Part shown: positions 6,837 through 61,799 of the stretch, piece by piece
Position numbering within the stretch: the first letter of the stretch is position 1
How the letters are laid out: each line of letters starts with the position of its first letter
Assembly: GCF_023078495.1 (NCBI RefSeq)
Contig: NZ_CP095742.1
Location: forward strand, 4,883,501-4,947,500
Length of the DNA stretch: 64,000 nt
DNA from: Luteibacter aegosomatissinici
GTDB lineage: Bacteria; Pseudomonadota; Gammaproteobacteria; Xanthomonadales; Rhodanobacteraceae
Direction of reading: 5' to 3'
Notes under the pieces: model-generated
The model's input: only the letters and a program-made list of their open reading frames with translations
Databases searched by the model: none
Told to the model about the DNA's origin: nothing
Made by a program: the position numbers and the translations under genes

Positions 6837-6932
6837 GTAGGAGCCCACCCTGTGGGCGACATCGTTTGGCGATGGGGAAACAGGACCTGTGGCCTCTACG
6901 CGAACGGCGTCGCCCACAGGGTGGGCTCCTAC
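6837..6932. repeat. Paired REP palindrome, copy A2, between kdpC and kdpD
   Basis: Arms of 24 bp identical to copy A1 at 6837-6860 and 6909-6932. The linker carries the family centre CAGGACCTGTGGCC. It sits 10 bp after the kdpC stop and 44 bp before the kdpD start, in the middle of what is otherwise one operon. Confidence 0.9.
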
Positions 6933-57204: not shown

Positions 57205-58082
57205 ACACCACCACCCGCGCCGCCTGGCTCTTCATCACGCCTGCGCTGATCATCCTCGGCCTGTTCTTCCTGTTGCCGGTGGTGGCCGCACTGGTGCTAT
57301 CGGTTACCGACTTCGATCTGTACGCGCTGGCCGATATCCGCAACCTGCGTTTCGTCGCGCTGGAGAACTACTGGTCGCTTTTGCAGCGCCCGCTGTTCTG
57401 GTCGGCGCTGGGCCACACGCTGTACTTCGTGATCGTGGGCGTGCCGCTATCGCTCATGGCCTCGCTCGGCGCCGCCATGCTGCTGAACTCACCGCTGGTG
57501 CGCTTCAAGCCCTTCTTCCGCACTGCGCTGTTTGCGCCCGTGGTGACCACCGTGGTTGCCGTGGCCGTGATCTGGCGTTACCTGTTCAACACCAAATACG
57601 GCCTGATCAACTACGTGCTCGATTCGATGCACCTGCCGACCGTGGACTGGCTCGGCGATCCGCACTGGGCCATGCCCACCATCATCCTGTTCGCCGTGTG
57701 GAAGAACTTCGGCTACAACATGATCATCTTCATGGCCGGCCTGCAGGCCATCCCGGCCGACCTGTACGAGGCGGCGCGCATTGATGGCGCCTCGGCCTGG
57801 GCGCAGTTCCGCCATATCACGCTCCCCATGTTGAAGCCGACCATGCTGATGGTGAGCATCCTCACCGTGTCGGGCTACTTCCAGCTGTTTGCCGAACCGT
57901 ACGTGATGACCGAAGGCGGCCCGCTGCAGAGCACGACCTCGGTGCTGTACCTGATGTACGAAGAAGGCTTCAAGTGGTGGAACCTTGGCTCGGCCTCCGC
58001 CGTGGCCTTCATCCTGTTCGTGATCATGTTCGTGGTCACCGCCGCGATGCTTCGCCTGTCGAAGCGGGGAGAGCCGGCATGA
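57201..58082 (+). CDS. Sugar ABC transporter permease (MalF/UgpA type)
   Basis: 293 aa with six membrane helices. EAA loop LYEAARIDGASAWAQFRHIT LPMLKP separated here for length; ITLPMLKPTMLM follows directly. It would partner the next permease and an ATPase that is not in the window. ATG overlaps the preceding stop by 4 bp. Confidence 0.93.
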   Translation: MNTTTRAAWLFITPALIILGLFFLLPVVAALVLSVTDFDLYALADIRNLRFVALENYWSLLQRPLFWSALGHTLYFVIVGVPLSLMASLGAAMLLNSPLVRFKPFFRTALFAPVVTTVVAVAVIWRYLFNTKYGLINYVLDSMHLPTVDWLGDPHWAMPTIILFAVWKNFGYNMIIFMAGLQAIPADLYEAARIDGASAWAQFRHITLPMLKPTMLMVSILTVSGYFQLFAEPYVMTEGGPLQSTTSVLYLMYEEGFKWWNLGSASAVAFILFVIMFVVTAAMLRLSKRGEPA

Positions 58083-58900
58083 GCCCGCGCCTGGCCAAGG
58101 CCGTTATCAACGGCCTGCTGATCGCCGCGGCGGCCATCGCCATCGCGCCGCTGCTTTACATGGTCTCGGTATCGTTCATGACGCCGGGCGAGGCGAGTGC
58201 CCTGCCGCCGCCGGTGTTGCCCACGCATGCCACGCTGGCGAACTACCGCCAGCTGTTCATGAATGCGGGCATGGGCCGCTACCTGTTCAACAGCCTGCTC
58301 ATTTCCACCGCCATCACCGTGGTCTCGCTGGCCTTCAACCTGATGGCCGGCTATGCCTTCGCCAAGCTGGAGTTCAAGGGCAGGGCGCGGCTGTTCCAGC
58401 TACTGCTGGGCGCGCTGGTCATCCCGGCGCAGGTCGCCATGTTGCCGCTGTTCCTGTTGCTGAAGTACATGGGCCTGGTGAACACCTACGGTGCGGTGAT
58501 CGTGCCGGCGCTCGCCACCATCTTCGGGATCTTCCTGGTTCGCCAGTACGCCAGCGGCATCCCCGATGACCTGATGGAAGCGGCGCGTATCGATGGCGCC
58601 GGCGAGTTCCGCATCTTCGCCACCATCATCATGCCGCTGCTGAAGCCGATCATGGTGACGCTGGCGATCTTCACCTTCCTGGCGGCATGGAACGACTTCA
58701 TGTGGCCATTGATCGCGCTGACCGGGCAGGAGCATTACACCCTGCCCATCGCGCTGGCGTCGCTGTCGCGCGAGCACGTGCAGGATAGTGAGCTGATGAT
58801 GGCCGGCTCGGTGGTCACGATCCTGCCGGTGCTGGTGTTGTTCCTCGCCCTGCAGCGCTACTACCTCGAAGGCCTGCTGCTGGGCAGCGTAAAGGGTTAA
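58079..58900 (+). CDS. Sugar ABC transporter permease (MalG/UgpE type)
   Basis: 273 aa from ATG 58079, overlapping the first permease (ATGA). Six helices. EAA loop DLMEAARIDGAGEFRIFATI then IMPLLKPIM. The C-terminus YYLEGLLLGSVKG is the classic MalG-like end. No ABC ATPase gene is adjacent; such systems often share a MsmK/UgpC-type ATPase encoded elsewhere. Confidence 0.93.
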   Translation: MSPRLAKAVINGLLIAAAAIAIAPLLYMVSVSFMTPGEASALPPPVLPTHATLANYRQLFMNAGMGRYLFNSLLISTAITVVSLAFNLMAGYAFAKLEFKGRARLFQLLLGALVIPAQVAMLPLFLLLKYMGLVNTYGAVIVPALATIFGIFLVRQYASGIPDDLMEAARIDGAGEFRIFATIIMPLLKPIMVTLAIFTFLAAWNDFMWPLIALTGQEHYTLPIALASLSREHVQDSELMMAGSVVTILPVLVLFLALQRYYLEGLLLGSVKG

Positions 58901-58904
58901 GACC

Positions 58905-61799
58905 ATGCATCCCTGTAGGAGCGCCCTTGCGCGCGATATCGATTCGCCGGGCGCCGCAGGTCCCGTGGCCTCGGTTTGCCGTCGATCGCGCACAAGCGCG
59001 CTCCTGCAGGGGCTATGGCTCCTTGTGGCGGGCGGTGCGCAGGCGTCGACGCTGGATGCGTTCGACACGACCACCGGCTGGCACGCCACGCACACCGATG
59101 ACGTCTCAGCGACACTCCACGCGGTGCCTGGCAAGGTCGGCCAGGCGGTGTGCCTCGCGTTCGACTTCAATGGCGTCTCCGGCGCCGCGTCGATTCGACG
59201 AACACTGCCCATTGATTTTCCCGAGGGCTTTGCGCTTGGCTTCGATGTGCGCGGCAACATGCCTGCGAACACCCTGCAGCTGAAGCTGATCGACGATACC
59301 GGCGACAACGTCTGGTGGTATCAGAAGCCGGGCTTCACGCCGTCGGCCGACTGGCAGCACATCGATGCCACCAGCCGCCAGGTCGAGTTCGCCTGGGGTC
59401 CATTGAAGGACCGTACCTTGCGCCACACGCGCGAGGTGGAGTTCATGGTCTACAAGGAAGCCCAGCCAAACGCGGGCCCGGACAAGGGCGAGGTGTGCTT
59501 CGATAACCTGACGCTCGTGCCGCGCAAGCCCGAGGCCGTCCCCGTGCCGCCGCCGACACCGAATGCGGTCTTTGAGCAGCGGGCTAAGGCAGTGCGCCGT
59601 GGGTTGTACCCACGCGGATTCTCCGGCGAGCAATCGTATTGGACCATCGTCGGCGTGGATGGTGGCAGCCGCGATTCCGCGCTGATCTCCGAAGACGGCG
59701 CCGTCGAGATCGTGCGCAGTGGGTTCTCGATCGAACCGTTCCTTATCGAGGCCGGCAAGCTGGTGACATGGGCCGACGTCACGGCGACGCAATCGCTGCG
59801 AGATCGTTACCTGCCCATGCCGTCGGTGGCATGGAAGAACGGCGATGTGTCGCTGACCACCACGGCGTTCGCGCAAGGCCAACCCGGATCCTCCGAGCTT
59901 GTGCTGTCGTACCGCGTCGCCAACGATGGCGATACGGCGCGTGACGTGACCCTGATGCTTGCGGCGCGGCCGTTCCAGGTGAATCCGCCGACCCAGTTCC
60001 TCAATGCACCGGGCGGCATCGCGACCCTTCGCGATCTGGCATGGGATGGGAAGGCACTCACCGTTAATGGCGAGCGGAAGGTCATACCGCTGCAAAAGAC
60101 CGCTACCGTGATTGGGGCGGTGAACACGCCGCGGATGTTGACCGAGCGTGTGGATGCGGGTGAGTCGCTTGGGAGTCTTTCGTTAGGGGCGATCGCGAGC
60201 AAGCTCGCTCCTACAGACGTTTCGCGGGCGCCGGTTGCTCGGGCGGAGGGGCTGCCACCAGGCGTTGCGCGGCTGCACGATGGGTCGGGGTTTGCCCAGG
60301 GCGCGTTCGTCTATCCCCTGCATGTGCCGGCGCATGGTCATGTAGATCTGGGGCTGGTCGTGCCCGTAAAGCAGGATGACGTGGTCGCTGCGCCAGGCGA
60401 CGCGGCAGCATGGCTGGCGTCGCACGGTGACGCGGTGGCCACGCAATGGCGTGAGAAGCTGGACCGCGTGGATGTACGTGTACCTGCGGTGGCCCAGCCG
60501 ATCGTCGATACGATGAAGAGCGGCATCGCGCAGATCCTCATCTCACGCGATGGCCCCGCGTTGCAGCCCGGCACGCGTTCGTACTCGCGTACCTGGGTGC
60601 GTGATGGCGCGATGATGCTGGAAGGCCTGCTACGCACCGGCCACGACGATGTCGCGCGCGAGTTTATCCGCTGGTACGCGCCGCACCAGTTTTCGAATGG
60701 AAAGGTGCCGTGCTGCGTCGATGCGCGTGGCTCCGATCCGGTGCCAGAGAACGATAGCCATGGCGAGCTGATCTTCAGCGTGGCCGAGCTTTGGCGGTAC
60801 ACGCATGATCGCGCGACCGTGGATGCGCTGTATCCCCATGTGCGCAAGGCGGCGCTTTATATGGATACGTTGCGCGCCAGCGAACGGCAGCCTGCGCGGC
60901 TTGAAGGGCCGGACCGTGCGCTTTACGGCCTGATGCCCGCCTCGATCAGCCACGAAGGGTATTCGGCCAAGCCGATGCATTCGTACTGGGATGATTTCTG
61001 GGCGCTGAAGGGCTACGAGGACGCTACGGATCTCGCTGCCGCGCTCGGCCACGCCGAGGATGCAAGAACGTTTGGCGCGTCACGCGACCAGTTCCGCGAG
61101 GATCTGCACGCGTCGATTGCGGCGGCCGTGAAAGCGAAGGGCCTGACGTTTATCCCTGGCTCGGCGGAGCTGGGCGATTTCGACGCGACGTCGACGACCA
61201 TCGCGCTCTCGCCCGGCGGCGAGGGATCGCGCCTGCCCAAGGCGCTGGTCGATGGCACGTTCGAGAAGTACTGGCAGTCGTTCGTCGCTCGCCGCGACGG
61301 CAAGGTGGCGTGGGAGGATTACACTCCCTACGAGCTGCGCACCATCGCGACCTTCGTTCGCCTGGGATGGCGCGATCGCGTGAATGACCTGATCGCGTTC
61401 TTCTTCGCCGATCGCCGCCCGGCGGCGTGGAACCAGTGGGCCGAGGTAGTCGGCCATGATCCGCGCAAGCCGCGCTTCGTCGGCGACATGCCGCACGCGT
61501 GGATCGCTTCGGATTACGTACGGTCAGCGCTGGACCTGTTCGCCTACGATCGCGAATCCGATAACGCCATGGTGCTCGCGGCCGGCGTGCAGCCGTCGTG
61601 GCTCGAGGGTGAGGGCATCGCCATCCGCGACCTGCGGACGCCTTACGGCCGCTTCGGCTACACGCTCAAGGCGAAGGACGGCAAGGCGGAGCTCACGATA
61701 ACTCAGCCGATCAGCCCGCCCGGTGGCCTGGTGCTGTCACTGCCCTCAGGCGAAACAAGGATCCCTGCCGGGAAGACCAGGATAAAGGCAGACCTGTAG
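58905..61799 (+). CDS. Large six-hairpin glycosidase with N-terminal carbohydrate-binding domain
   Basis: 964 aa. ATG 58905 follows the permease by 4 bp. Residues about 4-34 are encoded by a REP pair; the following stretch ALLQGLWLLVAGGAQA is a signal-peptide core, so export survives. Domains: beta-sandwich of CBM type (about 50-205), a Pro-rich hinge (PVPPPTP), a second beta domain, and an (alpha/alpha)6 catalytic domain (about 520-920) with GTRSYSRTWVRDGAMMLEGL resembling the R-DG motif of GH15/amylo-1,6-glucosidase, and GELIFSVAELWRYTHDR. I do not know its GH family. It probably works with PF10091 on the imported or extracellular glycan. Confidence 0.8.
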   Translation: MHPCRSALARDIDSPGAAGPVASVCRRSRTSALLQGLWLLVAGGAQASTLDAFDTTTGWHATHTDDVSATLHAVPGKVGQAVCLAFDFNGVSGAASIRRTLPIDFPEGFALGFDVRGNMPANTLQLKLIDDTGDNVWWYQKPGFTPSADWQHIDATSRQVEFAWGPLKDRTLRHTREVEFMVYKEAQPNAGPDKGEVCFDNLTLVPRKPEAVPVPPPTPNAVFEQRAKAVRRGLYPRGFSGEQSYWTIVGVDGGSRDSALISEDGAVEIVRSGFSIEPFLIEAGKLVTWADVTATQSLRDRYLPMPSVAWKNGDVSLTTTAFAQGQPGSSELVLSYRVANDGDTARDVTLMLAARPFQVNPPTQFLNAPGGIATLRDLAWDGKALTVNGERKVIPLQKTATVIGAVNTPRMLTERVDAGESLGSLSLGAIASKLAPTDVSRAPVARAEGLPPGVARLHDGSGFAQGAFVYPLHVPAHGHVDLGLVVPVKQDDVVAAPGDAAAWLASHGDAVATQWREKLDRVDVRVPAVAQPIVDTMKSGIAQILISRDGPALQPGTRSYSRTWVRDGAMMLEGLLRTGHDDVAREFIRWYAPHQFSNGKVPCCVDARGSDPVPENDSHGELIFSVAELWRYTHDRATVDALYPHVRKAALYMDTLRASERQPARLEGPDRALYGLMPASISHEGYSAKPMHSYWDDFWALKGYEDATDLAAALGHAEDARTFGASRDQFREDLHASIAAAVKAKGLTFIPGSAELGDFDATSTTIALSPGGEGSRLPKALVDGTFEKYWQSFVARRDGKVAWEDYTPYELRTIATFVRLGWRDRVNDLIAFFFADRRPAAWNQWAEVVGHDPRKPRFVGDMPHAWIASDYVRSALDLFAYDRESDNAMVLAAGVQPSWLEGEGIAIRDLRTPYGRFGYTLKAKDGKAELTITQPISPPGGLVLSLPSGETRIPAGKTRIKADL
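58915..59007. repeat. Paired REP element, B type, inside the six-hairpin glycosidase gene
   Basis: Left unit GTAGGAGCGCCCTT then GCGCGCGATA (58915-58938), right unit GATCGCGCACAAGCGCGC then TCCTGC (58984-59007). The linker holds CAGGTCCCGTGGCCTC, the same centre as the A-type copies, so it is a variant of that family. It falls in the first 35 codons of the downstream gene. Confidence 0.8.
60191..60214. repeat. Single REP element inside the glycosidase reading frame
   Basis: GATCGCGAGCAAGCTCGC followed by TCCTAC, the complement of a typical GTAGGAGCGAGCTTGCTCGC unit. It encodes residues around GAIASKLAPT (about 429-438) in a loop region. The reading frame stays open. Confidence 0.8.

Follow-up and report, generated by a model that had tools for sequence, protein, structure and literature searches.

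In Luteibacter aegosomatissinici, a doublet of repetitive extragenic palindromic (REP) sequences has probably inserted in frame behind the stop-coupled start codon of a putative six-hairpin glycosidase gene, ahead of the hydrophobic core of a Sec-type signal peptide; judging from comparison with relatives, translation would make it an enlarged, basic n-region. The locus lies in a window of 64,000 nucleotides (nt), bases 4,883,501-4,947,500 of the one-contig 4.99-Mb Luteibacter genome labelled G000 in our comparisons (Table 1; positions are those of the window unless a genome is named). The stop codon of the preceding permease gene (58898-58900) is followed after 4 nt by ATG 58905, from which the predicted protein of 964 amino acids (aa) starts MHPCRSALARDIDSPGAAGPVASVCRRSRTSALLQGLWLLVAGGAQA, then STLD.

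As originally predicted, a REP pair is present at 58915..59007. Its units take up codons 4-35 (codons 4 to about 34 had been proposed), and with its full arms (58911-59011) it spans codons 3-36 of the open reading frame (ORF). The arms are 27 nt each, 89% complementary, in inverted orientation with a spacing of 47 nt, and both carry a GTAGGAGCGCGC..GCGCGCGA REP unit, a GTAG-tagged palindrome that reads GTAGGAGCGC.CTTGCGCGCGA on the left and has drifted to GCAGGAGC on the right. Folded as single-stranded DNA, the pair reaches -35.7 kcal/mol, against -23.9 for shuffled sequences (standard deviation 2.5; z -4.64; 0/200 as good). On the features tested the element is a GTAG-type REP doublet, similar to REPINs (REP doublets forming hairpins). 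The centre of its linker, CAGGTCCCGTGGCCTC, resembles the centres of A-type pairs in the window (e.g., CAGGACCTGTGGCCTC in 6837-6932), and the motif TTCGCCGG[GA]CGCCGCAGGTCC is common to this pair and to the A-type pair (G000 4268063) directly upstream of a transposase gene; because of this shared motif the linker joins two REP families, as had been suggested from the sequence of the window. The original prediction also credited the right unit with the basic stretch CRRSRTS before the core; this unit does give one basic residue, R29, together with the first core residues, but the linker's end supplies the other two arginines.

The element's place in the gene is defined by comparison with relatives. 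We compared 23 congeneric Luteibacter genomes, G000 included, and found an orthologue in all of them, behind a permease whose C-terminal end RYYLEGLL.GSVKG is conserved at 23/23 loci. With or without an insert, every genome has a start codon for the ORF 1-5 nt past the permease stop. In 16/23 genomes there is no insert: the distance from the permease stop to the downstream motif HTDDV is 102-131 nt, the corresponding peptide 33-42 aa and the n-region 2-12 aa. The other seven (G000, G001, G002, G005, G006, G018 and G022) carry an insert, with 184-338 nt, 61-112 aa, and n-regions of 31-66 aa with a charge of +3 to +8. The distance from core to HTDDV is kept (27-46 aa with insert, 27-37 aa without); therefore, the extra DNA lies after the start codon and before the core. 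It had been proposed that the element landed in the gene's start, with the frame still an export signal, or else replaced that start. The 5′ ends of the orthologues agree with the former, the insert-free ones having short, different n-regions instead of the same N-terminus, and since the stop-adjacent start codon is present with and without insert, they support an element that landed behind the start codon over one that replaced it. All seven inserts are in frame and stop-free. After dinucleotide shuffling, these stretches are free of stops in 48% (G000), 39% (G001), 30% (G018), 58% (G022), 54% (G005), 24% (G006) and 60% (G002) of cases.

By simple rules the N-terminus in G000 has Sec-type features: an n-region of 31 aa with charge +3, the core ALLQGLWLLV, and the end AQA with small residues at -3/-1. 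The last residues of the element, ALLQ, would form the beginning of the core. We infer that the REP is translated as part of a signal peptide and that export still works. The enzyme itself bears its name as a putative one. PF17389 matches the 964-aa protein at 18.1 bits, which points to the six-hairpin glycosidase identity given in the original prediction but lies under the curated cut-off of 24.5; TIGR01577 scores 20.9 bits versus 820.7, and a search of PDB sequences gave no match up to an E-value of 0.1.

Table 1. Features at the permease-glycosidase junction and within the glycosidase gene (window positions)
Feature	Position	Strand	Basis
ABC-transporter-type permease gene	58079..58900	+	ORF list and sequence; label from reading the sequence, no family search
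Exported protein (putative six-hairpin glycosidase), 964 aa	58905..61799	+	ORF; orthologues in 23/23 genomes
Left REP arm; unit 58915-58936, read CRSALARD	58911..58937	+	arm complementarity, unit match
Linker of REP pair, centre like A-type pairs	58938..58984	+	sequence
Linker GTG, candidate alternative start (27-aa signal peptide)	58965..58967	+	sequence, frame
Right REP arm; unit 58986-59007, reads SRTSALL(Q) on the + strand	58985..59011	-	arm complementarity, unit match
Hydrophobic core and likely cleavage site ALLQGLWLLVAGGAQA	58998..59045	+	cleavage site by reading; ALLQ coded by the element
Single second REP unit in the same gene, codons 430-437	60193..60214	-	sequence; orthologue alignment

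Repeat families and recurrence at the junction

The seven inserts belong to three repeat families. Those of G000, G001, G018 and G022 are of the GTAGGAGCGCGC type (REP1), and G005 has a variant of it with a three-base centre. The insert of G006 is of the GTGGGAGCCGC type, a 62-nt part of it finding 64 matching pieces in the G006 genome, and that of G002 is a CGTC-tagged repeat, 111 nt of which find 89 matching pieces in its own genome; both piece counts include the two strands of palindromes, and the places are fewer. In G000 itself, searching for REP1 with two patterns of unequal strictness gave 185 and 380 matches, the latter at up to 3 mismatches, with 2 in a reversed control. This genome has one match to PF01797, the family of Y1-type transposases (38.8 bits; cut-off 23), and the A-type REP pair noted above sits directly upstream of its gene. 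From this REP-flanked setting the protein would be a REP-associated tyrosine transposase (RAYT) rather than another Y1 type, and such a transposase probably mobilised the REP doublet. Across the 23 genomes, exact REP1 cores number from 0 to 695, and at least one PF01797 match occurs in 22/23; copy number therefore does not track the presence of such a gene. Two genomes rich in cores, G003 (329) and G014 (695), have no insert at the junction, so that high copy number alone brings none here.

A protein tree of 29 sequences requires five changes of insert state, four of which are forced by well-supported branches; Rhodanobacter panaciterrae was scored as insert-free in it. At the same place this species (L086) has a stretch, LLLPLPAGGGWEG, resembling a repeat of yet another family, and its near relative L085 is without it. 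The inserts of the four near relatives G000, G001, G018 and G022 are read in the same two frames and may descend from one shared insertion. Independent origins for these four were considered and set aside, given the shared frames and a single clade with G008 outside that is unrejected (approximately unbiased test, p-AU 0.129). A hot spot defined by target sequence was likewise discarded, as no shared target was seen: apart from a C run, the four differ in the codons from the start to the element. G015, the nearest relative of G005, has no insert and retains a half-unit-like stretch, GCGGGCGCGCTCCTGC. Half-unit-like DNA without a full insert is also seen in the n-regions of orthologues L061 (G004), L071 (G015) and L076 (G021), and these stretches are perhaps scars of lost elements.

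REPs in other exported-protein genes

We scanned 900,137 bases of G000 in 99 stretches, which hold 241 units of the searched types in 165 clusters; the sample was mostly picked around known REP hits, and the in-gene share was taken only from its 300-kb part laid out at set intervals. REPs otherwise avoid genes: 2/25 units in the 300-kb part are within predicted genes, and 86% of the sample plus window is called coding. In the full sample 26/165 clusters fall within called genes, by leftmost starts. Sixteen candidates for the n-region arrangement came out of the scan, several of them spurious or with the start behind the element.

An orthologue check found four further exported-protein genes of G000 with a REP between start codon and core and with element-free relatives. 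Like the glycosidase, a beta-barrel-like gene starts at an upstream stop: it lies behind that of a multicopper oxidase, its start overlaps the oxidase stop in 6/6 genomes, and the REP pair is present in G000 only. The multicopper oxidase itself has a REP in G000 and in 0/5 relatives. In an M23 peptidase, the element is preceded by MRKF or MRKI; it occurs in G000 and G001, and the remaining 19 of the 21 readable orthologues are without it (G022 has no close one, and the unreadable N-terminus of L312 from G011 was left out). Finally, an SGNH-like protein has REP1-type DNA in G000, G018 and G022; among the other seven of its ten orthologues, five are without it, L296 (G013) was counted as unclear and L297 (G017), being unreadable, was left out. 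For this gene the start codon may itself fall within the element. Pfam scores of the oxidase and M23 domains are well above the cut-offs; the beta-barrel-like and SGNH-like proteins match no Pfam family and are labelled from reading their sequences.

Several further units were noted in passing. A single REP unit at G000 455571-455592, read CRSALARD, lies in the n-region of a DUF4124 protein, and an A-type pair (G000 2183880-2183985) lies at the start of a PBP-like gene (2182523-2184028, - strand) whose possible signal peptide MSPTGWAPTAAMLLVFATSTAQA begins within the right unit. Intragenic units outside signal peptides include one in codons 71-78 of a probable glycosyltransferase (G000 795206-795227). 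Around the second unit of the glycosidase gene itself (Table 1), G001 has a similar insertion, G018 and G022 have other extra residues, and the stretch is missing from G008 and most congeners.

Competing readings of the inserted sequence

Certain observations weigh against a REP inserted and translated as an n-region. The n-regions are unusually long at 31-66 aa, and a start at the linker's GTG 58965 would yield an ordinary one; among the seven species with an insert, hydrophobicity of the core is lowest in G000 (2.02); G008, which the tree places within the REP-bearing group, is without the insert (its genome holds only 2 exact REP cores, versus 81-633 in G000, G001, G018 and G022); and the difference between G005 and G015 could be a loss in the latter instead of a gain in the former. 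As to the wider pattern, random placement of the 165 cluster lengths gave a mean of 1.58 n-region hits, and 2/60 sets reached the five observed, of which two look spurious (the stricter scan behind these mechanical hits missed the M23 and SGNH-like cases). We accordingly rejected a strong preference of REPs for signal peptides as unsupported; a fair reading is that n-regions are treated as neutral DNA and are not targeted.

If the element brought its own start at GTG 58965, only its right half would be coded, as a 27-aa signal peptide MASVCRRSRTSALLQGLWLLVAGGAQA of textbook size, and the left half would stay untranslated. G001 has an in-frame ATG at a like place (MRGSRASTLLQGLVLLFVASSAGA), as does the SGNH-like gene of G000 (MPRKVVSRASALLQVLLATCLMALACASHA). 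However, the stop-coupled start exists in every genome and the frame is open across all inserts, G022 has no start codon between its upstream ATG and the edge of the core, and GTG 58965 is preceded by a weak AGG only; we regard this start as doubtful.

That the hairpin is retained for its RNA, at the end of the permease message or in setting the permease/glycosidase ratio, with coding incidental, seems unlikely to us. The RNA of 58880-59040 (the pair with its flanks) does fold very stably beside the start codon (z -3.71 against shuffles), but ribosomes reading through a hairpin would open it, and 16 congeners live without any insert. Inserts of different families do recur at the same junction, and a site just behind the upstream gene matches the pattern reported for transcribed REPs in the main text of Di Nocera et al., 2013 (PMC3733652).

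An insertion that damaged the signal peptide, such that the species no longer exports the enzyme, is improbable. The low hydrophobicity of the G000 core would fit it, yet three element-free species have values of 1.60, 1.75 and 2.04. The gene does hold a second, internal REP, but the rest of the protein is intact and stop-free, with 83-86% identity to the three closest full-length relatives, and basic residues, core and AQA end are all present. A mis-called start, with the element as 5′ leader and translation beginning behind it, echoes a published caution on REPs at annotated N-termini (in the main text of PMC3733652) but is very improbable. The upstream start is conserved, and from 59007 to the likely cleavage site there is a single start codon, GTG 59025; initiation there, within the core, would leave the protein without a signal peptide. 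Translation solely from downstream of 59007, which the original prediction named as a finding that would refute its own reading, was not seen.

We therefore prefer an element translated as part of the n-region, and the explanation we propose for it starts from what is seen at the junction, namely the position relative to relatives, the open frame, the recurrence and the repeat family. Between co-directional genes, REPs cluster close behind the upstream gene, according to the main text of PMC3733652. If they settle there and the next gene starts at once, the REP site would fall within its first codons; since the glycosidase and beta-barrel-like genes start at the upstream stop, the place close behind the upstream gene is, in these two, the n-region. 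An n-region would tolerate a REP well, needing mainly positive charge and no fixed length and being later cleaved off. The consensus REP unit is open in 5/6 frames and net basic in all six readings (+1 to +3 per unit), on account of which such units would be tolerated there; we infer tolerance rather than benefit.

Known palindromic repeats and significance

The REP dimers or REPINs with RAYTs described in the main text of PMC3733652 are alike in their GTAG tag, inverted pairing, high copy number and REP-flanked Y1-type transposase. That account already holds some GTAG REP units to be intragenic or at annotated N-termini, most of the latter in three species being judged outside the true gene. 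The words "signal peptide" are absent from its main text; here, orthologues support a repeated coding use in signal peptides. The insert of G002 compares with the CGTC-tagged REPs of the same paper's main text in having CGTCGCACCGGCGCAGGCCGG as an inverted pair, in many copies and at the same position; its sequence is unrelated to the window element and it is classed by tag alone. Rickettsia palindromic elements, as presented in the main text of PMC3733652 and in PMC10969869, are likewise mobile palindromic repeats read within proteins; unlike the checked cases here, which lie in n-regions of exported proteins, they belong to other sequence families and are described as spread over unrelated genes. 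We found no report of REPs as parts of signal peptides in the open-access literature searched. Intragenic and N-terminal REPs were thus already known, and the repeated use in signal peptides appears to be new as far as that literature goes.

More generally, n-regions at stop-coupled junctions might form a landing zone for REPs throughout Luteibacter, a possibility that we put forward tentatively. In almost every frame REP stems encode basic and small or hydrophobic residues, and for this reason they could serve as ready-made n-regions; the transposon-derived repeats would then repeatedly rewrite export signals and may cause species to differ in export or expression. Copies at annotated N-termini have largely been dismissed as start-site errors, and the comparison with relatives here supports a real coding use, which cautions annotators against automatic trimming of such starts. 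It also suggests a rule for any REP-rich genome, to examine exported proteins that start directly at the stop of an upstream gene. The orthologues at this junction would offer a natural series for how long and odd the n-region of a signal peptide may be, and the arrangement a route by which mobile repeats may become protein sequence at little harm.
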